Assembly (NCBI RefSeq): GCF_003667275.1
Contig: NZ_RCNV01000012.1
Span: 1-64,000, forward strand
Source of the DNA: Mesonia aquimarina
GTDB taxonomy: Bacteria; Bacteroidota; Bacteroidia; Flavobacteriales; Flavobacteriaceae
Direction: 5' to 3'
DNA: 64,000 nucleotides
Of the stretch, positions 12,186-45,972 are shown piece after piece. Made by a program: the position numbers and the translations under genes. Positions within the stretch are counted from its first letter, which is position 1; every line of letters begins with the position of its first letter. The notes beneath the pieces were generated by a model. That model worked only from the letters and a program-made list of their open reading frames with translations, was not told the origin of the DNA and ran no database searches.

Positions 12186-14393
12186 ATGAGAAGTAATTTG
12201 TTAATTTTTTTGGTTTTCCTGTTTATGGGTGTTTCTGGGGTTTCTCAGAATGCATACATCGATAATTCTACTGAAGGAGGTGAAGCCTTGAATAAAATTA
12301 TAAGCAATTCTTTTCAAAAAAAAGGCTTTAAGAATTTCCCATTAAAATTAGAGGGACTTTACCAAGCCTTAAAAATTGCAGAAAAAACCGATAATAAACG
12401 TACAATAGGTGTTTTACATTATTATTTATCTATTGCCTATTATTCCGTTAAAAATTATTCCGATGCAAAAAAACACGCTACTGAAGCAATAGAAGCTTTT
12501 CAGCAAAAACCATCTAACAAATTTCTACTTTTTTCTCAGTATTTTTTAACGGAAATTGAATTTCAACAAGGGAATTTTAAAGCTGCTGAAGCAATTTATA
12601 ATCAAATTGAAAGTGATAAAATTACTAGCAAAGAAATAAAGGCTTTAGATTATTTTTATAAAGGAAATTTTTATTTAAATCAGGATAATTTTAGTGAAGC
12701 ACTGGTTTATTTTAATCAAGCAGAAATCACTTTTAAAGACTTTTCGAGTAATTACCAGTTGGCTTATTTATACCATAGAATGAGTTATGCTTTTTTTAAA
12801 ATGAAAGATTTTGAAAATGCCTTAACTTATGCCGAAAAAGCTTTGATTTTATCAAAAAAAGAACAACTAGATTTTTTAAATATAGATGCTCTAGAATTGT
12901 TTAGTAAAATATATAATGCTGCAGAAGATAATATTTTAGCCTTGGAATATGCCTCGCAAAGCAATAACTATAAAGATTCATTATTGACTTTTGGCAATGA
13001 GATGCTTAGTAACGAAATTACCAAACGAAAAAGCAATACTTCAGATAGAACAATTTCTGAATTGTATTTAACAAATACAGAACAAGAAAAATCACTGAAA
13101 TTTAATCAGTTAGCTATTGTTTTAAGTGTATTGTTAATTACTATTCTCTCATTATTAACGTTATCACTTTATAAAAATAACAATCTACGGGCAAAGGCTA
13201 ATAATTTATTACAGAATAAGAATAATGAACTTATAAAAGCTAAAGAGCGTGCAGAAGCTGCTACAAAAGCAAGAGAGCAATTTTTATCAACTATTACACA
13301 TGAATTGCGAACACCAATTTATGCCATTACAGGATTAACCTATTTATTAATTAAGGAAAACCCGACCGATGCACAAAAAGAACATTTAAATTCCTTAAAA
13401 TATTCAGGAGAGCATTTATTGTCTTTAATAAATAATATTCTGGATCTTAATAAGTTAGAGGCTAATAAAGTTAGAAAAGTTAATGCGGTTTTTCATTTGA
13501 AAGCACACATGAAAAACTTTTTAAATACTTTACGTAAGCCTGCAGATGAAAAAGATGTATTACTTCATTTAGAAGTAGATGATGATATTCCATCTAAGCT
13601 AAGCGGGGATATGCTAAAAGTTTCTCAAGTTTTAATTAACCTAGTCGGAAATTCTATAAAATTTGCTGAACATGGTGACGTTTGGATTCGGTTAAAGTTG
13701 ATGAAAACTTCAGAAAAAGAAGTAGTAGTTCGTTTTGAAATTGAAGATAATGGAGTTGGTATTCCAAAACGAAAGCAAAAATCTATTTTTCAGAAATTCG
13801 ATCAAGGTCCCGATGAAATTAATGTAAAGTACGGAGGTACGGGCTTAGGTTTGCCAATTGTAAAAAACCTGCTTTTATTTTTGGGTAGCGAAATTCATTT
13901 AATAAGTGAAGAGGGTGAAGGTTCACTTTTTTACTTTGATATGCCTTTTGAAAAAGTCATTGGTAATGCGAAAAAAGAAAATTTAATTCCAAAAATTTCA
14001 AAGGAAGAACAACGAGAGCTTTTTAAAGGAAAACGGGTATTGGTGGTAGAGGATAATAAATTGAATCAAAAAATTACCCGAAAAATTTTAGAACGCTGTG
14101 AAATGGAAATCGAGCTCGCTGAAAACGGAGAAATTGCAGTAAATAAAACAAGAGAAACTAACTACGATCTTATTTTAATGGATATTCATATGCCTGTTAT
14201 GGATGGCATACAAGCTACGGAAATTATCAGAAAAAATGATAGTGAAACGCCAATTATAGCTTTAACAGCAGTAAGTATAAGTGAGACAACAGACGAGTTT
14301 TTAAGTCACGGATTCACCGATATTATACCAAAACCATACAAGACAGAGCTCTTTTTTGAGAAAATTTATAAAGTGCTTAATATTCGTCGATAA
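12186..14393 (+). CDS. hybrid sensor histidine kinase with TPR sensor region and receiver domain
   Basis: The product has 735 residues. Order: signal peptide (1-21); a helical periplasmic region with TPR-like repeats (about 70-260); one transmembrane helix (307-330); a coiled coil (331-365); the HisKA dimerisation domain with phospho-acceptor H372 in THELRTP; a HATPase domain with N box (N485, N489), DNGVGIP (521-527) and GGTGLGL (550-556); and a receiver domain (about 617-732) with acidic pair E622/D623, phospho-acceptor D666 in LMDIHMP and K716. No DNA-binding output is fused, so a separate phosphotransfer partner or cytoplasmic target is expected. The signal is unknown. Its last 17 bases overlap the 3' end of lpxK on the other strand. 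Confidence 0.95.
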   Translation: MRSNLLIFLVFLFMGVSGVSQNAYIDNSTEGGEALNKIISNSFQKKGFKNFPLKLEGLYQALKIAEKTDNKRTIGVLHYYLSIAYYSVKNYSDAKKHATEAIEAFQQKPSNKFLLFSQYFLTEIEFQQGNFKAAEAIYNQIESDKITSKEIKALDYFYKGNFYLNQDNFSEALVYFNQAEITFKDFSSNYQLAYLYHRMSYAFFKMKDFENALTYAEKALILSKKEQLDFLNIDALELFSKIYNAAEDNILALEYASQSNNYKDSLLTFGNEMLSNEITKRKSNTSDRTISELYLTNTEQEKSLKFNQLAIVLSVLLITILSLLTLSLYKNNNLRAKANNLLQNKNNELIKAKERAEAATKAREQFLSTITHELRTPIYAITGLTYLLIKENPTDAQKEHLNSLKYSGEHLLSLINNILDLNKLEANKVRKVNAVFHLKAHMKNFLNTLRKPADEKDVLLHLEVDDDIPSKLSGDMLKVSQVLINLVGNSIKFAEHGDVWIRLKLMKTSEKEVVVRFEIEDNGVGIPKRKQKSIFQKFDQGPDEINVKYGGTGLGLPIVKNLLLFLGSEIHLISEEGEGSLFYFDMPFEKVIGNAKKENLIPKISKEEQRELFKGKRVLVVEDNKLNQKITRKILERCEMEIELAENGEIAVNKTRETNYDLILMDIHMPVMDGIQATEIIRKNDSETPIIALTAVSISETTDEFLSHGFTDIIPKPYKTELFFEKIYKVLNIRR

Positions 14394-32020: not shown

Positions 32021-32051
32021 TTTGAATACTTTAAATAAATTTCTACATTTG
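32021..32051 (+). promoter_or_regulatory. promoter of the ribosomal-protein cluster (rpsL)
   Basis: TTTG (32021-32024), 19 bases, then TACATTTG (32044-32051): an excellent match to the Bacteroidota -33/-7 consensus. The rpsL ATG is at 32108, so the leader is about 50 bases. Confidence 0.75.
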
Positions 32052-32054
32052 CAA

Positions 32055-32070
32055 ACCCTAAAAATAGGGT
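32055..32070 (+). promoter_or_regulatory. hairpin at the 5' end of the rpsL transcript
   Basis: ACCCTA (32055-32060), loop AAAA, TAGGGT (32065-32070): a perfect 6-bp stem that begins about where transcription should start. It may stabilise the mRNA or serve as a regulatory site. Confidence 0.5.
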
Positions 32071-35107: not shown

Positions 35108-35413
35108 ATGAGTCAGAAAATCAGAATAAAACTAAAATCTTACGATTATAATTTGGTAGATAAATCTGCCGAAAAAATTGTAAAAACTGTAAAAACAACT
35201 GGAGCGGTAGTAACAGGTCCAATTCCTTTACCAACTCACAAAAAGATTTTTACAGTACTTCGTTCTCCACACGTAAATAAAAAAGCAAGAGAGCAATTTC
35301 AATTAAGCTCATATAAAAGATTGCTAGATATTTATAGTTCTTCTTCTAAAACGATTGATGCGTTGATGAAGTTAGAATTACCTAGTGGAGTTGAAGTTGA
35401 GATAAAAGTATAA
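35108..35413 (+). CDS. rpsJ: 30S ribosomal protein S10
   Basis: S10 is part of the 30S head and, with NusB, of antitermination complexes. It has 101 residues, typical. The family signature is around [28 protein letters not shown]. It is the last gene before a 129-base spacer holding alternative RNA pairings and a terminator, so in this genome S10 is transcriptionally grouped with the str genes and is set apart from rplC. Confidence 0.99.
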
Positions 35414-35415
35414 GG

Positions 35416-35461
35416 CCTGAATAATTATTTCAGGAACATGTCCTGAGCTGCGTGCGAGGGA
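35416..35461 (+). promoter_or_regulatory. alternative RNA pairings upstream of the rplC terminator
   Basis: Segment 1 CCTGAA (35416-35421) can pair with segment 2 TTCAGG (35429-35434). Segment 2 as TCAGGA (35430-35435) can instead pair with segment 3 TCCTGA (35441-35446). Segment 3 can in turn pair with AGGGA (35457-35461). These pairings exclude one another and sit just before a strong terminator, as in an attenuator or a ribosomal-protein leader. Confidence 0.5.
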
Positions 35462-35480
35462 AAAACGGAATGAAAAATAC

Positions 35481-35513
35481 ATAGGACTAGTATTTTTCTA
35501 GTCCTATTTTTTT
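35481..35513 (+). terminator. terminator or attenuator between rpsJ and rplC
   Basis: ATAGGACTAG (35481-35490) pairs perfectly with CTAGTCCTAT (35498-35507), a 7-base loop, followed by TTTTTT (35508-35513). It is a strong intrinsic terminator only 29 bases before the rplC ATG, leaving little room for a new promoter, so read-through control is likely. Confidence 0.85.
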
Positions 35514-35542
35514 AATAATAGTTTAATTAATAATTAATAAAT

Positions 35543-36157
35543 ATGTCTGGGTTAATAGGAAAAAAAATCGGTATGACCAGCATTTTTGACGAGAATGGAA
35601 AAAATATTCCATGTACCGTTATACAAGCTGGGCCATGCGTAGTTACCCAAGTCAGAACCAATGAGGTTGACGGGTATGAAGCACTTCAACTTGGTTTCGA
35701 TGACAGAACAGACAAAAGTACTGTTAAAGCTGCTCAAGGGCACTTTAAAAAAGCTGGTACTGTTGCCAAACGTAAAGTTGTCGAGTTTCAAGGTTTCGAA
35801 GGGGATCACAATTTAGGTGATGAAATTACTGTAGAACATTTTACTGAAGGAGAATTTGTTGATGTATCAGGTACTTCTAAAGGTAAAGGTTTTCAGGGTG
35901 TTGTTAAAAGACATGGGTTTAGAGGGTCATCTAAAACTCACGGTCAACAAAGTATGCTAAGAGCTCCAGGTTCTGTTGGGGCAGCTTCTTATCCTGCACG
36001 TATCTTTAAAGGTATGCGTATGGCTGGCCAAATGGGAGGAGATAAAGTGAAAGTACAAAACCTTAAAGTGTTGAAGGTGGTTTCTGATAAGAATCTACTG
36101 GTTGTGAAGGGCTGTGTTCCAGGTCACAAAAACGCTTATGTAACTATACAGAAGTAA
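35543..36157 (+). CDS. rplC: 50S ribosomal protein L3
   Basis: L3 is an early 50S assembly protein whose long loop reaches toward the peptidyl-transferase centre. It has 204 residues. The loop sequence [12 protein letters not shown] and the following SSKTHGQ are conserved, as is the N-terminal [10 protein letters not shown]. Its TAA stop overlaps the rplD start (TAATG), so L3 and L4 are translationally coupled. Confidence 0.99.
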
Positions 36158-36786
36158 TGAAAGTAGCAGTATTAGATATTAAAGGAAAAGAAACAGGAAG
36201 AAAGGCAGACCTTTCTGATGCTGTTTTTGGAATTGAACCTAATGATCACGCTGTTTATTTAGATGTGAAACAGTATTTGGCTAATCAACGCCAAGGTACT
36301 CACAAAGCAAAAGAGCGTGCTGAAATTAAAGGAAGTACAAGAAAGATTAAAAAGCAAAAAGGAACCGGTACTGCAAGAGCAGGTAGTATAAAATCTCCAA
36401 TTTTCAAAGGTGGAGGTAGAGTTTTTGGTCCTAGACCAAAAGACTACGGTTTTAAATTGAATAAAAACCTTAAGCGTTTAGCTAGAAAATCTGCATTAAG
36501 TCAGAAAGCAAAGGATAACGCTATTGTTGTAGTTGAGGATTTTGATTTCGATACGCCTAAAACAAAAAACTTTATTGAAGTTTTAAATAGCTTAGGCTTA
36601 AACGGTAAAAAATCTTTAATCGTGTTGGGTGGGTCAAATAAAAATGTATATTTGTCATCACGCAATTTAAAGAGCTCTGAAGTTATAACTAACTCAGAAT
36701 TAAGTACTTACAAAATACTTAATGCTAAAAATGTTGTGCTTTTAGAGGGTTCTTTAGAAGGAATAGAGTCGAATTTGAGTAAATAA
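36157..36786 (+). CDS. rplD: 50S ribosomal protein L4
   Basis: L4 lines the peptide exit tunnel with its extended loop. It has 209 residues. The tunnel loop is [23 protein letters not shown] and neighbours (about 66-90). In E. coli L4 is the autoregulator of the S10 operon; here the candidate regulatory structure is upstream of rplC instead of rpsJ. It shares a base with the rplC stop. Confidence 0.99.
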
Positions 36787-36791
36787 GCATT

Positions 36792-37082
36792 ATGAGTATC
36801 TTAAAAAAACCTATTATTACAGAAAAGGCAACAAACGATAGTGAGTTGAATAACCGCTTCGCTTTTGTTGTGGATAATAAGGCGAACAAGATTGAAATTA
36901 AAGACGCAGTAGAGTCTGCTTATGGTGTTTCAGTTGAAAAAGTTCGTACTATGAATGTCCGTCCAAATCGCAAGAGTCGTTATACGAAAACTGGGATTGT
37001 TACTGGTAAAACAAATGCTTATAAAAAAGCAATTGTACAGGTGGCGGAAGGAGAAACTATAGATTTATATGCTAATCTTTAA
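36792..37082 (+). CDS. rplW: 50S ribosomal protein L23
   Basis: L23 lies at the tunnel exit and is the docking site for trigger factor and SRP. It has 96 residues. Conserved blocks are [10 protein letters not shown] at the start and [18 protein letters not shown] in the middle. It sits between rplD and rplB with gaps of 5 and 11 bases, the standard S10 operon order. Confidence 0.99.
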
Positions 37083-37093
37083 GAGAATTAGAA

Positions 37094-37921
37094 ATGTCGG
37101 TTAGAAAATTAAAACCAATTACTCCTGGTCAGCGATTTAGAGTTGTTAATGGGTATGACGCCATTACAACTGACAAGCCGGAGAAAAGCTTGCTTGCTCC
37201 GAAAAAAAGATCTGGAGGTAGAAACAGTCAAGGAAAAATGACTATGCGCTATTTAGGTGGTGGTCATAAGAAACGTTATCGTGTTATTGATTTTAAACGT
37301 GATAAGCAAGGTGTTCCTGGAACGGTAGCTTCGATAGAGTATGATCCTAATAGGACTGCTTTTATTGCGTTGTTGAATTATCAAGACGGAGAGAAGCGTT
37401 ACGTGATAGCTCAAAATGGGCTTCAGGTAGGGCAAAATCTTGTGTCTGGTACGTCTGGAATTGCTACAGAGATAGGGAATGCGATGCCATTATCTCAGAT
37501 ACCATTAGGTACAGTAGTTTCTTGTGTTGAGCTGCGTCCTGGACAGGGTGCTGTCATGGCGAGAAGTGCTGGAGCTTTTGCTCAGCTAATGGCTAGAGAA
37601 GGAAAGTACGCTACAATTAAATTACCTTCGGGTGAAACTAGAATGGTTTTAGCTGAATGTTTAGCAACTATTGGTGCTGTGTCTAACAGTGATCATCAGT
37701 TGATGGTTTCAGGTAAAGCGGGTAGAAAACGTTGGTTAGGTAGAAGACCAAGAACAAGACCAGTGGTGATGAATCCTGTAGATCACCCAATGGGTGGTGG
37801 AGAAGGTCGTGCTTCTGGAGGTCATCCAAGATCAAGAAAAGGTCTTCCTGCAAAAGGTTTCAGAACTCGTTCTAAAACCAAATCGAGTAATAAGTATATT
37901 GTAGAACGTAGAAAGAAATAA
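37094..37921 (+). CDS. rplB: 50S ribosomal protein L2
   Basis: L2 is needed for subunit joining and supports the peptidyl-transferase centre. It has 275 residues. The C-terminal block [12 protein letters not shown] carries the universally conserved histidine important for peptidyl transfer. The N-terminal RNA-binding OB fold contains [15 protein letters not shown]. Length and order are normal. Confidence 0.99.
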
Positions 37922-37928
37922 TTAAGAT

Positions 37929-38207
37929 ATGGCACGTTCATTAAAAAAAGGACCTTACGTTCACTATAAGTTAGAGAAAAAAGTTGCTCAAAATGTTGAG
38001 TCTGGTAAGAAAACCGTGATCAAAACTTGGTCTCGCGCTTCGATGATTACACCAGATTTTGTAGGGCAAACTATCGGAGTTCATAATGGGAAACAATTTG
38101 TTCCTGTTTATGTTACAGAGAATATGGTAGGTCATAAATTAGGAGAATTTTCACCAACTAGATCTTTTAGAGGTCACGCTGGTGCAAAAAATAAAGGTAA
38201 AAAATAA
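37929..38207 (+). CDS. rpsS: 30S ribosomal protein S19
   Basis: S19 is a head protein near the A-site finger contact with the 50S. It has 92 residues. The family core is [22 protein letters not shown], followed by [18 protein letters not shown]. It lies 7 bases after rplB and 8 before rplV. Confidence 0.99.
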
Positions 38208-38215
38208 TTGAAGCT

Positions 38216-38623
38216 ATGGGAGTTCGTAAAAGAGAGAGAGCAGAGCAAATAAAAGAGGCTAAAAAGCAAGTAGCTTTTGCAAAGCTAAATAACTGCCCTA
38301 CTTCACCAAGAAAAATGCGATTAGTTGCAGATTTGGTAAGAGGTGAAGGTGTAGAGAAAGCGCTTCAAATTTTAAAATTCAGCTCTAAAGAAGCGTCAGG
38401 TAGAGTAGAAAAGCTTTTGCTTTCAGCTATTGCAAACTGGCAAATGAAGAATGAAGATGCTAGTTTAGAAGATGCGGAGTTGTTTATTAAAGAGATTCGT
38501 GTGGATGGAGGAAGTATGTTGAAAAGACTTCGTCCTGCCCCACAAGGAAGAGCACATAGAATTAGAAAAAGATCTAACCATGTTACACTTGTGTTAGGAT
38601 CTAATAACAATACACAAAGCTAA
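38216..38623 (+). CDS. rplV: 50S ribosomal protein L22
   Basis: L22 lines the exit tunnel through a long beta hairpin whose tip is the site of macrolide-resistance changes. It has 135 residues. The C-terminal block [19 protein letters not shown] is the conserved hairpin region. The N terminus has about 20 extra charged residues ([15 protein letters not shown]) before the usual start of homology. Confidence 0.98.
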
Positions 38624-38632
38624 GTAAGGAGT

Positions 38633-39352
38633 ATGGGACAAAAAACAAATCCAATCGGAAACAGACTTGGTATCATTAAAGGATGGGAATCTAACTGGTA
38701 CGGAGGAGATGATTACGGTAATAAACTTGCCGAAGATGATAAGATTAGAAAGTATATCCATGCACGTCTTTCAAAAGCTAGTGTATCTAGAGTGATTATC
38801 GAGCGTACACTTAAACTTGTAACCGTTACTATCACCACCGCTCGTCCAGGTATTATAATTGGAAAAGGCGGTCAGGAGGTAGACAAGTTGAAAGAAGAGC
38901 TTAAGAAAATCACAGGCAAGGAGGTTCAGGTTAATATTTTTGAAATTAAAAGACCTGAATTAGATGCTCATCTAGTAGCAGCGAGTGTTGCAAGACAAAT
39001 AGAAAATCGTATTTCTTATCGTCGTGCAATTAAAATGGCTATTGCTGCTGCAATGCGTATGAATGCAGAAGGAATTAAAATCCAGATTTCAGGTCGTTTA
39101 AACGGTGCTGAGATGGCGCGTTCAGAAGCTTATAAAGATGGTAGAATTCCATTGTCAACCTTTAGAGCCGACATTGATTATGCTTTAGTTGAAGCGCATA
39201 CTACTTATGGTAGATTGGGCATTAAAGTATGGATTATGAAAGGCGAGGTATACGGAAAAAGAGAACTTTCTCCGCTTGTAGGTTTATCTAAAAAGCAAGG
39301 AGGGAAATCTGGATCTGGACGAGGTGGTAACAAATCACGTCGTAGAAAGTAA
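38633..39352 (+). CDS. rpsC: 30S ribosomal protein S3
   Basis: S3 forms part of the mRNA entry site and helicase. It has 239 residues. The KH domain has the GxxG loop in [13 protein letters not shown] (about 75-87). The C-terminal domain includes [15 protein letters not shown]-type sequence and ends in a basic Gly/Ser/Lys tail. An AAGGAG sits before the ATG with only one base of spacing, too close to act as a Shine-Dalgarno site. Confidence 0.99.
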
Positions 39353-39370
39353 TTTTTTAAAGAAAAAGAA

Positions 39371-39790
39371 ATGTTACAGCCTAAAAGAACAAAATACCGT
39401 AAGCAGCAAAAAGGTCGTATGAAAGGAAATGCACAGAGAGGGCATAGACTTTCAAATGGGACTTTCGGAATCAAATCATTAGATTCTAGTTTTGTTACTG
39501 CAAGACAAATAGAGGCAGCTCGTATTGCTGCTACTCGTTATATGAAAAGGGAAGGATCTTTATGGATTAAAATTTTCCCAGACAAGCCTATTACCAAAAA
39601 ACCATTAGAAGTACGTATGGGTAAAGGTAAAGGTAACGTAGAGTATTGGGCCGCTGTAGTGAAGCCAGGAAGAATCCTTTTTGAATTAGGAGGAGTTTCG
39701 ATGGCAACTGCTAAAGAGGCGTTACGTCTTGCAGCGCAAAAATTACCCGTGAGAACTAAATTTATTGTAGCTAGGGATTATCAAGAATAA
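39371..39790 (+). CDS. rplP: 50S ribosomal protein L16
   Basis: L16 organises the A- and P-site tRNA region of the 50S. It has 139 residues. It opens with the family's [18 protein letters not shown] and carries [19 protein letters not shown], which holds the conserved tRNA-contacting arginine and lysines. It precedes rpmC by 11 bases. Confidence 0.99.
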
Positions 39791-39801
39791 TTTTTGAAAT
39801 T

Positions 39802-39993
39802 ATGAAACAATCAGAAGTAGAAAAATTATCGGTAGCTGAATTGCAAGAAGAAATTGCTAAAGCAAAGCAATCTTACACAGATTTAAAAATGGCTCATGCA
39901 ATTACGCCGTTAGATAATCCGGCGCAGTTAAGAACTGTTAGAAGGACTAATGCGCGATTAGCAACAGAACTGACAAAAAGAGAATTACAATAA
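39802..39993 (+). CDS. rpmC: 50S ribosomal protein L29
   Basis: L29 is a two-helix protein at the tunnel exit that contacts L23 and helps dock trigger factor. It has 63 residues, normal. The helices are about 5-30 and 38-60; the family motif is LRTVRRTNARLATEL. It is in the standard place between rplP and rpsQ. Confidence 0.98.
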   Translation: MKQSEVEKLSVAELQEEIAKAKQSYTDLKMAHAITPLDNPAQLRTVRRTNARLATELTKRELQ

Positions 39994-40008
39994 TTCTGCT
40001 GAAGTAAG

Positions 40009-40266
40009 ATGGAAAAAAGAAACTTAAGAAAAGAACGTATAGGTGTTGTTACTAGTAACAGAATGGAGAAATCTATTGTTGTTTCTGAAGTAAAGAAAAT
40101 GAAACACCCTATGTATGGAAAATTCGTTTTAAAGACGAAGAAATACGTAGCGCACGACGAGACAAATGACTGCAACGAAGGGGATACTGTAAAGATCATG
40201 GAAACACGACCTTTAAGTAAAACTAAAAGTTGGAGATTAGTAGAAATAATTGAAAGAGCGAAGTAA
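40009..40266 (+). CDS. rpsQ: 30S ribosomal protein S17
   Basis: S17 is an OB-fold primary binder of the 16S 5' domain. It has 85 residues. Conserved blocks are [19 protein letters not shown] and the C-terminal [18 protein letters not shown]. It lies 2 bases upstream of rplN. Confidence 0.99.
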
Positions 40267-40268
40267 TT

Positions 40269-40637
40269 ATGGTACAACAAGAGTCTAGATTAAGAGTGGC
40301 AGATAATACCGGAGCTAAAGAAGTATTAGCAATTCGTGTATTAGGAGGTACAAAAAAGAGATACGCTTCTGTTGGAGACAAAATCGTTGTCAGCGTAAAA
40401 GAAGCTACACCTAATGGAAACATTAAAAAAGGTGCAGTTTCTACAGCAGTTGTTGTTCGTACCAAAAAAGAAGTACGCAGACCAGACGGATCTTATATCC
40501 GTTTTGATGATAATGCGTGTGTTCTTCTAAACCCAACTGGGGAGATGAGAGGAACACGTGTTTTTGGGCCTGTGGCGAGAGAACTTCGTGATAAACAATT
40601 TATGAAGATTGTATCATTAGCACCAGAGGTGCTTTAA
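40269..40637 (+). CDS. rplN: 50S ribosomal protein L14
   Basis: L14 forms an intersubunit bridge and contacts L19. It has 122 residues. The signature is [21 protein letters not shown], with [11 protein letters not shown] and [13 protein letters not shown] farther on. In many bacteria it is the first gene of the spc operon; here the run is continuous from rpsQ. Confidence 0.99.
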
Positions 40638-40647
40638 TACAGAAAAG

Positions 40648-40959
40648 ATGGCAAAGCTTAAAATAAAATCAGGAGATACCGTGAAGGTGATTGCTGGAGA
40701 TCATAAAGGTCAAGAAGGTAAAGTACAAGTGGTATTAATTGAAAAGAATAAAGCAATTGTAGAAGGTGTTAACATGATTTCTAAACATGAGAAACCAAGT
40801 GCATCTAACCCACAAGGTGGAATTGCAAAAAAAGAAGCTCCAATCCATATCTCAAACCTTGCTTTAGTAGATAAAGACGGTAACACAACTCGTGTTGGAT
40901 ATAGAATGGAAGGTGATAATAAAGTGAGATTTTCTAAAAAATCTAATGAAGTAATTTAG
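40648..40959 (+). CDS. rplX: 50S ribosomal protein L24
   Basis: L24 initiates 50S assembly by binding the 5' end of 23S rRNA. It has 103 residues. The KOW motif is at the N terminus ([19 protein letters not shown]), with [11 protein letters not shown] and the [15 protein letters not shown] block behind it. It precedes rplE by 2 bases. Confidence 0.99.
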
Positions 40960-40961
40960 TT

Positions 40962-41513
40962 ATGAGTTACGTACCAAGACTTAAACAAGAGTATAAAGAC
41001 AAGGTCATTTCAGCTCTTACAGAGGAGTTCAGTTATGAGAATAAAATGCAAGTTCCAAAGCTAACTAAGATCGTTCTTAGTAGAGGTGTAGGTGCTGCAG
41101 TAGCTGACAAAAAACTTATTGACCACGCTGTTGAGGAATTAACCACAATAACGGGTCAAAAAGCGGTATCAACTATTTCTAAAAAAGATGTTGCTACATT
41201 TAAATTACGTAAAGGGATGCCAATTGGTGCAAAAGTTACCTTAAGAGGTGAACGTATGTACGAATTTTTAGACCGTTTAATAACTGCTGCACTTCCGCGA
41301 GTTCGTGATTTTAATGGGATTAGTGCTACAGGATTTGATGGAAGAGGGAATTATAACCTTGGTGTAACTGAGCAAATAATTTTTCCTGAGATCAATATTG
41401 ATAGTGTAAACAGAATTAACGGTATGGATATTACATTTGTAACTACCGCAAATACTGATAAGGAAGCAAAATCATTGTTAACTGAACTAGGATTACCTTT
41501 TAAAAAGAATTAA
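40962..41513 (+). CDS. rplE: 50S ribosomal protein L5
   Basis: L5 binds 5S rRNA in the central protuberance. It has 183 residues. Conserved blocks are [16 protein letters not shown], then [16 protein letters not shown] and the [11 protein letters not shown]-like [12 protein letters not shown] near the C terminus. It is 2 bases before rpsN. Confidence 0.99.
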
Positions 41514-41515
41514 TT

Positions 41516-41785
41516 ATGGCTAAAGAATCAATGAAAGCCCGTGAGGTGAAAAGACAGAAATTGGTAGATAAGTATGCTGATAAACGTAAAGCTTTAAAAG
41601 AAGCTGGAGATTATGAAGCATTGCAGAAATTGCCAAAAAATTCTTCACCGGTACGTTTGCATAATCGTTGTAAACTTACAGGTAGACCGAAAGGGTATAT
41701 GAGACAATTTGGCGTTTCTCGTGTTATGTTTAGAGAAATGGCTAATAAAGGATTAATTCCTGGAGTAAAAAAAGCCAGTTGGTAA
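41516..41785 (+). CDS. rpsN: 30S ribosomal protein S14, zinc-free form
   Basis: S14 is a late-assembling 30S head protein. It has 89 residues, the long form. The zinc-ribbon cysteines of the short form are not present: the core reads [20 protein letters not shown] with only one Cys. This is the C-minus type, which needs no zinc. A 56-base structured spacer separates it from rpsH. Confidence 0.98.
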
Positions 41786-41833
41786 ATTTATAAATGGGTT
41801 GAAGGTTCATTATTGAAAACCACAACCATAAAT
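41786..41833 (+). promoter_or_regulatory. structured spacer upstream of rpsH
   Basis: ATTTA (41786-41790) can pair with TAAAT (41829-41833), and TGGGTTG (41795-41801) with CAACCA (41823-41828) with one bulged G. The spacer is the longest in this part of the cluster and may be an S8-type autoregulatory site; the pairing is moderate. Confidence 0.35.
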
Positions 41834-41841
41834 TAGAATAG

Positions 41842-42240
41842 ATGAATACAGATCCTATTGCAGATTATTTAACAAGAATTAGAAATGCTGTTGCGGCAAA
41901 CCATAGAGTGGTTGAAATTCCAGCATCTAATTTAAAGAAACAGATCACAAAGATATTATTCGATCAAGGATATGTTCTTAGTTACAAATTTGAAGATGAG
42001 ACCGCTCAAGGAACCATCAAAATAGCTCTTAAGTATGATAAGGATACTAAAGAATCGGTAATTAAGGAGATTCAACGAATAAGTAAACCTGGTTTACGTA
42101 AATATGCAGGTGCTGAAGAATTGCCAAGAATTCTTAATGGCTTAGGTGTTGCTATTGTTTCTACTTCACACGGAGTAATGACAGACAAACAGGCTAGAAA
42201 AGAAAAAGTTGGTGGAGAAGTACTTTGCTACGTTTACTAA
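41842..42240 (+). CDS. rpsH: 30S ribosomal protein S8
   Basis: S8 binds helix 21 of 16S rRNA and, in E. coli, represses the spc operon by binding a similar mRNA structure. It has 132 residues. It opens with [14 protein letters not shown] and ends with the family block [26 protein letters not shown] candidate leader structure lies just upstream. Confidence 0.99.
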
Positions 42241-42259
42241 TACTTAAAAGACGAAAACA

Positions 42260-42802
42260 ATGTCAAGAATAGGTAAAAGTCCCGTAACCATTCCAGAAGG
42301 CGTTAATGTAGACGTTAAGAACGGAATAGTAACGGTTAAAGGAAAATTAGGAGAGCTAACGCAAGAGTTCAGCGATATAGATATTAAAATAGAAGACGAT
42401 AAAATCGTTTTAGAAAGACCTTCAGAAAAAAAGGTTTTCAAATCTAAACACGGTTTGTACAGAGCTTTGATTAACAACATGATTCAGGGTGTATCTAAAG
42501 GATATACAAAAGAACTTGAATTAGTTGGTGTAGGGTACAGAGCAACCAATCAAGGGCAGAAGTTAGATTTAGCTATTGGTTATTCTCATAACATTGTAGT
42601 AGATTTAGCTCCTGAAGTTAAGGTTGAAACCGTGAGTGAGAAAGGTAAAAACCCAATTGTTAAATTAACATCTCACGATAAGCAATTAGTAGGACAAGTT
42701 GCTGCAAAAATTCGAGGCTTCCGTAAACCTGAACCTTACAAAGGAAAAGGGATTAAATTTGTAGGAGAGCAATTACGAAGAAAAGCAGGTAAATCAGCTT
42801 AA
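42260..42802 (+). CDS. rplF: 50S ribosomal protein L6
   Basis: L6 lies near the sarcin-ricin loop and factor-binding site. It has 180 residues. It opens with SRIGKSPVTIPEGV, and the C-terminal signature is RKPEPYKGKGIKF. It follows rpsH by 19 bases and precedes rplR by 12. Confidence 0.99.
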   Translation: MSRIGKSPVTIPEGVNVDVKNGIVTVKGKLGELTQEFSDIDIKIEDDKIVLERPSEKKVFKSKHGLYRALINNMIQGVSKGYTKELELVGVGYRATNQGQKLDLAIGYSHNIVVDLAPEVKVETVSEKGKNPIVKLTSHDKQLVGQVAAKIRGFRKPEPYKGKGIKFVGEQLRRKAGKSA

Positions 42803-42814
42803 TAAAGTGTAGTT

Positions 42815-43168
42815 ATGGCATTTTCAAAAGTAAAAAGAAGAAATAAAATTAGAAAAAGGATTCGTAAGAATCTGGTTGGTACAGCTGAAACACCAAGATT
42901 ATCAGTTTTTAGAAGTAATAAAGAAATTTATGCTCAAATAATTGATGATGTTGAGGGGAAGACTTTAGTATCAGCCTCTTCTAGAGATAAAGGTGTAAGC
43001 ACAGAAGGTTCAAAATCTGATGTAGCTACAGCTGTTGGGAAATTAATTGCTGAAAAAGCAACACAAAATGGAATAAATACCATTACTTTTGACAGAAGTG
43101 GTTATTTATACCATGGTAGAGTTAAATCATTAGCAGAAGGTGCTCGCGAAGGAGGACTTAAATTCTAA
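42815..43168 (+). CDS. rplR: 50S ribosomal protein L18
   Basis: L18 binds 5S rRNA with L5 and L25 in the central protuberance. It has 117 residues. The basic N terminus and the block [19 protein letters not shown] are typical, as is the C-terminal [19 protein letters not shown]. Confidence 0.99.
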
Positions 43169-43174
43169 AAAGAT

Positions 43175-43699
43175 ATGTATCAAGATTATAAAAACGTAGA
43201 ACGTGTAAAGCCAAGCGGCTTAGACTTAAAAGATCGTTTAGTTGGAGTACAACGGGTAACTAAAGTTACTAAAGGTGGTAGAGCTTTTGGATTTTCTGCT
43301 ATCGTTGTTGTAGGAGATGAAAATGGTGTTGTTGGTCAAGGTTTAGGTAAATCTAAAGAAGTTGCAGAAGCTATTGCTAAGGCAGTAGAAGATGCAAAGA
43401 AGAATTTGGTTCGTATTCCCTTACATAAAGGAACTTTGCCTCACGAGCAAAAAGGTAAATATGGAGGAGCTAGAGTATTGTTAATTCCAGCTTCAACAGG
43501 TACCGGTGTAATTGCTGGTGGTGCAATCCGTTCAGTATTAGAATCAGTAGGTGTGCATGATGTACTATCTAAAAACCAAGGTTCTTCTAACCCGCATAAT
43601 GTTGTAAAGGCAACTTTTGATGCGTTACTTAAATTACGTAGTGCAGATACTGTTGCGAAACAACGTGGTATTTCTTTAGATAAGGTTTTTAACGGATAA
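43175..43699 (+). CDS. rpsE: 30S ribosomal protein S5
   Basis: S5 contributes to decoding fidelity and mRNA unwinding at the entry site. It has 174 residues. The double-stranded RNA-binding domain contains [18 protein letters not shown] and [17 protein letters not shown]; the C-terminal domain shows [18 protein letters not shown]. It follows rplR by 6 bases. Confidence 0.99.
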
Positions 43700-43713
43700 T
43701 AATTCAAGGAAAC

Positions 43714-43896
43714 ATGGGAAAGATAAAAGTAACTAAAGTAAGAAGTGCGATTAACCGTACTAAAAACCAAAAGCTTACTCTAGAAGCATTAGGATTGAAA
43801 AAAATTGGGCAAAGCGTTGAGCATAATGATTCGCCTAACATCCTTGGAATGGTAAATAAAGTGAAACATTTAGTTTCTGTAGAAGAAACAAAATAA
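43714..43896 (+). CDS. rpmD: 50S ribosomal protein L30
   Basis: L30 is a small 23S-binding protein. It has 60 residues. The family core is KVRSAINRTKNQKLTLEALGLKKIGQSVEHND. It lies in the usual place between rpsE and rplO. Confidence 0.98.
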   Translation: MGKIKVTKVRSAINRTKNQKLTLEALGLKKIGQSVEHNDSPNILGMVNKVKHLVSVEETK

Positions 43897-43904
43897 GATA
43901 AGCA

Positions 43905-44357
43905 ATGGAATTAAATAACTTAAAACCTGCAAAGGGTTCAGTGCGTAGTAATAATAAGCGTGTAGGGCGTGGAGAAGGATCAGGTAAAGGAGGTACTTCA
44001 ACTCGTGGGCACAAAGGTGCTAAATCTCGTTCAGGTTATTCTAAGAAAATCGGTTTTGAAGGTGGTCAGATGCCACTTCAAAGACGAGTTCCTAAATTCG
44101 GTTTTAACAATATTAATCGTAAAGAATACCAAGGTGTTAATTTAGATACGCTTCAACAATTAGTTGATGATGGTAAAATTAAAGATACGGTTGATTTTGA
44201 AACTTTAATCGAAAATCGTTTAGCTAGAAAGAATGAACTGGTTAAGATTTTAGGAAGAGGTGAACTTAAAGCAAAATTAAAGGTTTCTGCTCATAAATTT
44301 ACTGCCTCTGCTAAAGAAGCTATTGAGGCTGCAGGAGGAGAAGCGGTAACCTTATAA
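43905..44357 (+). CDS. rplO: 50S ribosomal protein L15
   Basis: L15 is a late 50S assembly protein. It has 150 residues. The N-terminal tail RVGRGEGSGKGGTSTRGHKG and the block FEGGQMPLQRRVPKFGF are diagnostic. It ends 13 bases before secY. Confidence 0.99.
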   Translation: MELNNLKPAKGSVRSNNKRVGRGEGSGKGGTSTRGHKGAKSRSGYSKKIGFEGGQMPLQRRVPKFGFNNINRKEYQGVNLDTLQQLVDDGKIKDTVDFETLIENRLARKNELVKILGRGELKAKLKVSAHKFTASAKEAIEAAGGEAVTL

Positions 44358-44370
44358 TTAAGACATTAGC

Positions 44371-45708
44371 ATGAAATTTATTGAAACAATAAAAAACATT
44401 TGGAAAATAGAAGAGCTCAAAAATCGTATTTTAGTTACGCTTGGGCTCTTATTAGTGTATAGATTTGGAACACAAATTGTACTTCCCGGAATTGACGCTG
44501 CTCAATTAGCAGATTTATCAACTCAAGCAGATGGAGGTTTACTTGGTTTACTGAACGCATTTACTGGGGGGGCATTTGCAAATGCTTCTATTTTTGCATT
44601 AGGTATTATGCCTTACATCTCTGCATCTATTGTGGTGCAGTTAATGGGTATTGCTGTTCCTTACCTTCAAAAACTCCAAAAAGAAGGAGAGAGTGGTAGA
44701 AAGAAAATTAACCAAATAACACGCTGGTTGACGATTGCTATAACTTTGGTTCAAGGACCAGGTTATATTTATAATCTTTTCTCTACACTACCAGAAAGCG
44801 CTTTTTTAATGGGTGATTCTCTTTCGTTTATTGTTTCTTCTGTAATCATTCTGACAACAGGAACTATTTTTGCAATGTGGTTAGGAGAACGTATTACAGA
44901 TAAAGGTATTGGTAACGGTATTTCTTTGCTTATTATGGTAGGGATTATAGCCACTTTGCCGCAATCATTTTTACAAGAATGGGTTTCAAGAGTTTCTGAA
45001 TCTAACGGAGGTATGGTTATGATTCTTATTGAATTGGTCATCTGGTTTGCTATCATTTTTGCATCAGTAATGCTTGTGATGGCCGTTCGTCAGATTCCTG
45101 TTCAATATGCGAGAAGAAATGCTTCAGGAGGCTATGAAAAAAATATTTTTGGAGGAGCTAGACAGTTTATTCCATTAAAATTAAATGCTTCAGGGGTAAT
45201 GCCAATTATATTTGCACAAGCAATTATGTTTATTCCTGCAGCATTAGCCGGTCTTTCGGATTCAGAAACAGCACAGGGTATAGCAGGAGCTTTTAATAAT
45301 ATATTTGGTTTTTGGTATAACTTAGTGTTCGCACTATTGATTATCATATTTACGTATTTCTATACTGCCATTACAGTACCAACTAATAAAATGGCGGATG
45401 ATTTAAAGCGTAGTGGTGGATTTATTCCTGGAATTAAACCCGGGACAGATACAGCAGAATATTTAGATAGAATAATGTCTCAAATCACACTTCCAGGTTC
45501 TGTATTTTTAGCATTAATTGCGATATTTCCTGCAATTATTGTTTCTATAGGAGTACAGCAAGGATGGGCTCTATTTTTTGGAGGTACATCTTTACTGATT
45601 ATGGTTGGGGTTGCTATAGATACGATGCAACAAGTTAATTCGTATTTGTTGAATAGACATTATGATGGACTAATGAAATCAGGTAGAAATCGAAAAGCAG
45701 TAGCTTAA
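44371..45708 (+). CDS. secY: protein translocase subunit SecY
   Basis: SecY is the ten-helix channel of the general Sec translocon in the inner membrane. It has 445 residues. The first helix (about 20-40), the plug helix region near GIDAAQLADL, and the conserved loop GRKKINQITRWLTI are visible; the C-terminal cytosolic tail ends SYLLNRHYDGLMKSG. The large second periplasmic and C5-type cytosolic loops are complete. adk and map, which often follow secY, are missing; infA starts 3 bases later. Confidence 0.99.
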   Translation: MKFIETIKNIWKIEELKNRILVTLGLLLVYRFGTQIVLPGIDAAQLADLSTQADGGLLGLLNAFTGGAFANASIFALGIMPYISASIVVQLMGIAVPYLQKLQKEGESGRKKINQITRWLTIAITLVQGPGYIYNLFSTLPESAFLMGDSLSFIVSSVIILTTGTIFAMWLGERITDKGIGNGISLLIMVGIIATLPQSFLQEWVSRVSESNGGMVMILIELVIWFAIIFASVMLVMAVRQIPVQYARRNASGGYEKNIFGGARQFIPLKLNASGVMPIIFAQAIMFIPAALAGLSDSETAQGIAGAFNNIFGFWYNLVFALLIIIFTYFYTAITVPTNKMADDLKRSGGFIPGIKPGTDTAEYLDRIMSQITLPGSVFLALIAIFPAIIVSIGVQQGWALFFGGTSLLIMVGVAIDTMQQVNSYLLNRHYDGLMKSGRNRKAVA

Positions 45709-45711
45709 ATT

Positions 45712-45927
45712 ATGGCAAAACAACCCGCGATAGAACAAGACGGAACTATTATTGAAGCATTATCTAATGCAATGTTTAGAGTAGAACTGGAAAATGGTCA
45801 TGTAGTAACTGCGCACATTTCAGGTAAAATGCGTATGCACTATATAAAATTATTACCAGGAGATAAAGTGAAATTAGAAATGAGTCCTTACGATTTAACA
45901 AAGGCTCGAATTACATATAGATACTAA
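45712..45927 (+). CDS. infA: translation initiation factor IF-1
   Basis: IF-1 occupies the A site during initiation. It has 71 residues forming a single OB fold. The family block is [30 protein letters not shown], of which the RMH and LPGD parts are most conserved. It is the last gene before the 116-base spacer that carries a promoter and a hairpin. Confidence 0.99.
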
Positions 45928-45964: not shown

Positions 45965-45972
45965 TACTTTTG
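45965..45972 (+). promoter_or_regulatory. putative -7 box of an internal alpha-operon promoter
   Basis: TACTTTTG matches TAnnTTTG, 71 bases upstream of the rpmJ ATG. The 116-base spacer is far longer than most gaps in the cluster, which supports an internal promoter. A -33 TTG at the right distance is not evident. Confidence 0.5.

Follow-up and report, generated by a model that had tools for sequence, protein, structure and literature searches.

A conserved leader RNA between rpsJ and rplC of Flavobacteriaceae, a candidate ribosomal-protein attenuator

What does a strong terminator do in the middle of a ribosomal-protein gene cluster? The question is raised by a 64,000-nt stretch of the genome of Mesonia aquimarina (contig NZ_RCNV01000012.1, positions 1 to 64,000; hereafter the window), in which open reading frames and NCBIfam names give the gene order rpsL-rpsG-fusA-rpsJ, a 129-nt spacer (35414-35542), and then rplC-rplD-rplW-rplB, on to secY and infA. 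In E. coli, rpsJ is the first gene of the S10 operon. A reading of the window made from its letters alone had described the rpsJ-rplC spacer as attenuator-like, with a perfect 10-bp terminator and a T run 29 nt before the rplC ATG. Both the coordinates and the stem were confirmed. The description also holds. The terminator is conserved, is mutually exclusive with a second conserved hairpin, and is the strongest plus-strand terminator-like site among those listed for 30.0-47.5 kb.

The predicted fold of the spacer beats all 200 dinucleotide shuffles (z -3.77). From 5′ to 3′, the leader consists of a hairpin P0, the motif ACAUGU, a hairpin P1, the motif AAAACGG, four interleaved arms A-B-A′-B′ and a U run (Table 1). 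Two of its parts had been overlooked in the sequence-only reading, namely the 33-nt core, which is the most conserved part of the leader, and the hairpin A:A′.

Table 1. Features of the rpsJ-rplC leader and its surroundings, in window coordinates.
Feature	Position	Strand	Basis
Promoter-like -7 box TAcaTTTG before rpsL	32044..32051	+	Pattern scan; motif only
rpsJ (S10), last gene 5′ of the element	35108..35413	+	NCBIfam NF001861, E 3.9e-45
P0 hairpin, sequence-variable, adjoining the core	35416..35434	+	Arm-swap test (155 loci), hairpin score
Core ACAUGU-P1-(G)GAAAAACGG, proposed protein-binding domain	35436..35468	+	Flanks nearly invariant in 99 + 57 loci
P1 hairpin (35441-35444/35458-35461 and 35447-35448/35454-35455, G.A/A.G mismatches between)	35441..35461	+	Covariation count
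Antiterminator-type hairpin A:A′, exclusive with the terminator	35472..35498	+	Swap tests, covariation, nascent folds
Intrinsic terminator stem-loop B:B′, 10 bp	35481..35507	+	Terminator scan; 96.1% of cells paired, double-sided changes in 7/7 pairs
U run of the terminator	35507..35513	+	Sequence
rplC (L3), first gene 3′ of the element	35543..36157	+	NCBIfam TIGR03625, E 1.7e-80
rplD to infA, a further 21 downstream genes without intergenic TAnnTTTG	36157..45927	+	Open reading frames, NCBIfam names, motif scan

The pairings were compared across relatives by swap tests, in which arms are exchanged among loci; such tests keep composition but do not correct for relatedness. For the terminator stem B:B′, which has a 7-nt loop and runs into seven T, own arms gave -15.29 kcal/mol against -9.69 for swapped arms in 98 loci, and -17.02 against -10.70 kcal/mol in 57 loci found later, with 0/2000 permutations as good in either set. 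On a tree of rpsJ, the sides of two terminator pairs agree in 102/104 and 103/104 rows, and those of a third in 83/97.

Hairpin A:A′ (GAAAAAUAC:GUAUUUUUC, 35472-35480 with 35490-35498 in the window) gave -6.28 kcal/mol for own and -4.25 for swapped arms in the 98 loci and -5.90 against -4.90 kcal/mol in the 57 later ones, where again none of 2000 permutations was as good in either set, and two A:A′ traits show agreement in 135/153 and 137/153 rows of the rpsJ tree. The arms A, B, A′ and B′ are interleaved without a linker between A′ and B′, bases 35490 and 35498 being common to both hairpins. Because B′ starts directly after A′, A:A′ and B:B′ cannot coexist, and A:A′ is a conserved competitor of the terminator. 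When the folds of growing transcripts were predicted, A:A′ turned up at one or more lengths in 152 of the 155 loci, and 151 of the 155 had reached the terminator by the final length; for the transcript of the window, the best predicted fold is still A:A′ at 35503 and is the terminator at 35505. On its own, A:A′ mostly reaches -3 to -9 kcal/mol, whereas the terminator mostly lies between -9 and -24 kcal/mol; being the weaker of the two, A:A′ would act only kinetically or if stabilised.

P0, whose arms in the window are 35416-35421 and 35429-35434, is the first of three mutually exclusive pairings (1:2, 2:3 and 3:4) that the spacer had been proposed to form. It is conserved as a hairpin, with -7.16 kcal/mol for own arms against -3.46 for swapped ones in 155 loci (0/2000 permutations as good), and 83% of 156 loci have a hairpin score of at least 10, against 26% of mononucleotide shuffles. 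The other two pairings can be drawn in the window but are not kept by relatives, own and swapped arms giving -3.18 and -3.13 for 2:3 and -5.18 and -5.19 for 3:4. The covariance check across relatives that had been suggested for the spacer had the same mixed outcome: there are compensatory changes in the terminator and 1:2 is kept, whereas 2:3 is not.

The flanks of the core vary in a few loci at positions 2, 3, 29 and 31, and are otherwise nearly invariant (99 + 57 loci). P1 has the form CCUGAGC..GCGAGGG, with G.A/A.G mismatches, in many loci, for which reason its fifth and sixth pairs are mostly non-standard and tabulated as unpaired. Elsewhere P1 is fully paired (CCUUAAC..GUUAAGG, CCUAAAC..GUUUAGG or UCUUUAAC..GUUAAAGA), and the G.A/A.G step is swapped for Watson-Crick pairs in some other genera.

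An alignment of 106 of the 156 loci (A3; every second one of the first set was taken) was used to count pairs that changed on both sides. This was the case for 19 of the 24 pairs in P1, the terminator, the outer and inner parts of A:A′ and a step at the hairpin top: 6/8 in P1 (79.8% of cells paired), 2/4 in outer A:A′, 3/3 in inner A:A′ (MAFFT columns 47-49 with 75-77), 1/2 at the hairpin-top step, and the remainder in the terminator. Only 25.9% of cells are paired in inner A:A′, which probably reflects misregister in the MAFFT alignment. Cells with double-sided changes numbered 232 against 80.3 in shuffles, a value reached by 0/500. Among 42 hand-picked cores (alignment A4, with the CCCACCG class left out), 5/8 P1 pairs changed on both sides, a count reached by 65/500 shuffles, and the P1 covariation score was reached by none of 500. 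The sides of P1 pair 7 agree in 136/138 rows of the rpsJ tree, with 19 and 21 changes, and those of pair 4 in only 55/88; this tree is weakly supported, with only 2-4 independent pairs on supported branches, too few for pair statistics. L078, which contains an N, was left out of the fold and swap tests, and L051 and L281 were left out of the tree. The four hairpins P0, P1, A:A′ and B:B′ are kept across genera by compensatory changes.

How widely is the leader distributed? The region was matched in 15 of the 16 genomes of the genus, the window's own genome counted (the exception being G013). Across the family, labelled f1 in our genome counts and taken as Flavobacteriaceae, the strict core pattern, derived from the genus and allowed at most two mismatches, occurs in 86 of 199 genomes, an undercount, and the backwards control pattern in 0. 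In each of the 99 loci gathered through DNA or core matches, rplC begins 102-306 nt downstream of the first base of the core; this count leaves out L001 (a duplicate of L002) and L017 and L018 (chance DNA matches). A scan of named species genomes found at least 118 stretches. Loci were available for 80 of these; rplC follows within 500 nt in 76, and the remaining four are cut by the locus end. The named-species carriers are Flavobacteriaceae with four exceptions: L149 and L203 bear no label finer than Bacteroidetes, and the metagenome bins L164 (labelled Rhodobacteraceae) and L181 (Chlorobiota) are probably mis-binned.

The sequence upstream of rplC was sampled in 80 genomes, comprising 68 of the 113 strict negatives, four more members of the large genus g127 and eight genomes of other families; rplC was present in 79 of them. 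When the 330 nt 5′ of rplC were searched with a looser expression, 57 of the 71 family members and 0/8 others proved to have a diverged element, these 57 loci preceding rplC by construction. A covariance model built from both locus sets, the first and the diverged (R2), matched 313 of 397 family genomes and 194 of 237 genera at E <=1e-4, with a single match per listed row and positions not inspected singly; the weakest match listed (G197, E 9.9e-5) may be due to chance. Elsewhere in the window, R2 has one further match (13939-14001, E 0.94), which was attributed to chance.

Beyond the family, R2 gave 24 matches in 296 genomes of the order, all in f1, and ten in 395 genomes of the class, one of them outside f1 (G934). 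The latter (L326, E 7.6e-6) is an ordinary terminator that does not lie 5′ of rplC. With an earlier model, R1, there were 18 matching genomes among 196 of the order and 11 among 198 of the phylum; its weak matches L117-L122 are ordinary terminators or chance, away from rplC, and their removal leaves 13 and 10, all f1. No match outside the family was accepted with R1 or R2 in these order, class and phylum genome sets. The leader is common to most Flavobacteriaceae.

The Rfam scan suggested for the spacer yielded no family: none of Rfam 15 matches it at gathering scores in the window scan, a scan of 511 bases at relaxed E-value gave four matches, all far below gathering scores, and none was found in nine hand-picked relatives. 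The sole Rfam match in the window is the S4-Flavobacteria leader RF03141 (46957-46997, 48.2 bits), just before rpsD. It is likewise a ribosomal leader of this lineage and lies in the same window, but is a single short hairpin before rpsD, and the spacer is not matched by RF03141. No such leader is listed for Flavobacteriaceae in Table 1 of the 2020 survey by Eckert and Weinberg (PMC7247131), and none between rpsJ and rplC was found for them in the literature searched (PMC7247131, PMC9723704, PMC2965389 and PMC10931766). The family itself appears to be absent from Rfam 15 and from the 2020 survey table; the mechanism class to which its sequence would assign it, a terminator/antiterminator ribosomal leader, is known.

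Leaders of comparable position or design have been described elsewhere. The spacer had been tentatively linked to a flavobacterial leader family named for L2, a link that found no support, as the L2 leader in Table 1 of PMC7247131 is that of Alphaproteobacteria, before rplB, and the spacer has no Rfam match. Both this leader and the L4 leader of Archaeoglobi, which precedes rplC, are predicted (PMC7247131) and lie in the same gene block as the flavobacterial element. They belong to another phylum and another domain, the flavobacterial element sits neither before rplB nor in Alphaproteobacteria, and the Rfam scans gave no above-chance match in the spacer. As described in PMC10931766, the E. coli S10-operon leader (L4/uL4) is, like the element here, a structured leader with an intrinsic terminator controlling S10-operon transcription, where the proposed role of L4, aided by NusA, is to stabilise a paused complex. 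It precedes the whole operon, whereas the flavobacterial element lies between rpsJ and rplC, downstream and not upstream of rpsJ; the latter is also without an Rfam match and without any resemblance to the L4 site that we could find. The L10(L12)4 leader of B. subtilis and the L20 leader act by protein-dependent transcription attenuation, and the L10 leader has a mutually exclusive antiterminator and terminator (PMC10931766). Unlike the interleaved A-B-A′-B′ arrangement here, its model uses a separate anti-antiterminator, and it concerns other genes and proteins (PMC10931766).

Likeness of the core to rRNA was also sought. Degenerate core words matched the 23S genes of E. coli and of three flavobacteria no better than chance, and a covariance model of the core (R3) found nothing above chance in rRNA (best E 1.1); a purely three-dimensional likeness would escape both comparisons. 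There was no rRNA match in the window's own assembly. A structural scan of E. coli 16S and 23S, run without a control, returned many loose look-alikes, none convincing. Near base 990 of flavobacterial 23S, CCATGTCCGAG matches at 8 of 9 letters, and shuffles reach 8 or 9. These comparisons turned up no mimicry of rRNA by the core, and with it no pointer to the ligand.

Where would a transcript that reaches the leader start? The -7 box of flavobacterial sigma-A is TAnnTTTG (PMC9723704). Exact copies between 30.9 and 48.5 kb are intergenic only at 32044, before rpsL, and at 45965, after infA, the rest being intragenic. The 22 genes from rplC to infA should therefore depend on read-through from rpsL, and judging by this motif the rpsL box is the probable start of the transcript reaching the attenuator. 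The promoter-motif scan thus backs the earlier proposal that expression beyond the mid-cluster terminator depends on read-through. A sigma-70-type match (TTGAGA, 17 nt, AATAAT; 10 of 12) spans the rpsJ end and P0 at 35397-35425; the 57 sites of the corresponding scan hardly exceed the shuffle expectation of 53.6, and the -7 box of this lineage is a different one. A promoter at 35397-35425 would undercut the read-through view, and the scan leaves room for one. Directly 3′ of the rpsL box, where the str transcript probably begins, lies a short hairpin (ACCCTAAAAATAGGGT, 32055-32070), possibly a leader of its own or a 5′ stabiliser. The copy TAcTTTTG at 45965-45972, after infA and before the next ribosomal genes, is a probable transcript boundary.

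The distance from the rpsJ stop to the core ranges from 8 to 473 nt, with a median of 32 (155 loci). TAnnTTTGC occurs in this gap in 10 of the 155 loci, a figure without a chance control. In six loci (L037, L038, L042, L050, L277 and L281; likewise without a chance control) the motif lies 21-33 nt 5′ of the core and is directly followed by P0, so placed that the leader there may be the self-contained 5′ end of an mRNA. In L037, L038 and L042 the rpsJ stop codon forms the first letters of the motif, which may there be fortuitous.

Of the 14 family members that lack the element, six have a TAnnTTTGC-type motif before rplC and eight have none. L253, L255, L266 and L306 carry a bare hairpin/terminator between rpsJ and rplC, with neither core nor TAnnTTTGC. 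The element is absent from all five members of g127 examined; in four of them (L305, L308, L309 and L313) TAnnTTTGCAC stands 5′ of rplC, followed up to the start codon by a short stretch that is alike between species pairs. Three species of one genus in family f5 (L320-L322) have TAAATTTGCACACTC and then a nearly identical stretch (TTAGGGGCGTAGTATGCCTACATC...) 5′ of rplC, which could be a different leader.

Taken as a whole, we consider it probable that the element acts in cis as a ribosomal-protein leader RNA and controls transcription by attenuation, an excess of ribosomal protein binding the core and favouring termination. The structure is backed by covariation, ribosomal-protein genes lie directly downstream (99/99; 76/80 loci), and a conserved terminator is accompanied by a conserved hairpin exclusive with it. 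A polymerase from the rpsL promoter would make P0 and the core with P1, and then A, B and A′. A:A′ would pair first, as suggested by predicted folds of growing transcripts, and would be displaced before B′ pairs with B, upon which transcription would stop at the U run. An excess of a ribosomal protein encoded downstream, most likely L4 or L3 and less so L23 or L2, would bind the P0/core/P1 domain, and because only 0 to about 4 nt separate this domain from A, the bound protein could disfavour A:A′. The terminator would then form, reducing rplC to infA (22 genes) while rpsL-rpsG-fusA-rpsJ would still be made. We infer termination and a ribosomal-protein ligand, the latter from the position of the element and from the rule for this class that ligands are encoded downstream. 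L4 would be favoured by the 'prior ligand' rule (PMC7247131) and the E. coli precedent (PMC10931766), and L3 because rplC is the first downstream gene. That an excess of protein would lead to termination is assumed by analogy with known attenuating leaders.

Other readings of the same anatomy have to be weighed. The core may instead bind another factor, such as a Nus/antitermination complex, a small signal or S10/NusE, the product of the preceding gene; the leader would then be a positive read-through switch. Such a factor would suit a short core without rRNA resemblance and with nearly invariant, apparently unpaired flanks, and rpsJ (S10) does lie directly upstream, outside the control. We nevertheless regard it as unlikely, as nothing was found pointing to such a factor and the checked copies precede a ribosomal-protein operon, the defining trait of candidate ribosomal leaders in PMC7247131. 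We place no more weight on the view that the element ends the str transcript and lets a constant share of polymerases read through, by which the str:S10-spc ratio would be fixed and nothing sensed, the core serving for processing or stability and A:A′ for pausing. The predicted stability of the terminator, far above that of A:A′, and the members with a hairpin/terminator and no core (L253, L255, L266) would fit this, but a constant leak would require no conserved 33-nt core and no covarying hairpin that excludes the terminator, and with a promoter-like motif directly before P0 in six loci, the element there may serve as a 5′ leader rather than as the end of str.

Coupling to translation, whether by ribosomes finishing rpsJ or by a short frame at the core AUG, is very improbable. 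The core does contain an AUG, and AUG UCC is followed by UGA or UAA in many loci; other loci have CGA, CAA or GGA there, so that no frame is kept, the spacing from the rpsJ stop to the core is not fixed, and P1 varies by matching pairs. Still less credible is a chance combination of a strong terminator with AT-rich self-complementarity. A-rich and U-rich stretches readily pair, but a functionless element is refuted by conservation: the composition-keeping swap tests gave 0/2000, the spacer fold stands at z -3.77, and 313/397 family genomes have a match.

A bolder version of leader control seems possible, if doubtful: a master valve on the 22 translation genes from rplC to infA that would sense L3, or a factor from outside the block (S10/NusE, or an antitermination complex reading ACAUGU and AAAACGG), and not L4, the established regulator of the S10 operon. 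We know of no L3-sensing leader. The covariation model, the defined 33-nt core and a ligand question open to binding tests are outcomes that can be put to use. With rpsJ placed in the str block, the arrangement suggests that the control site has moved to between rpsJ and rplC. If the ribosomal-protein attenuator reading is true, the leader would be a control point for the S10 and spc block in most Flavobacteriaceae, separate from the str genes.
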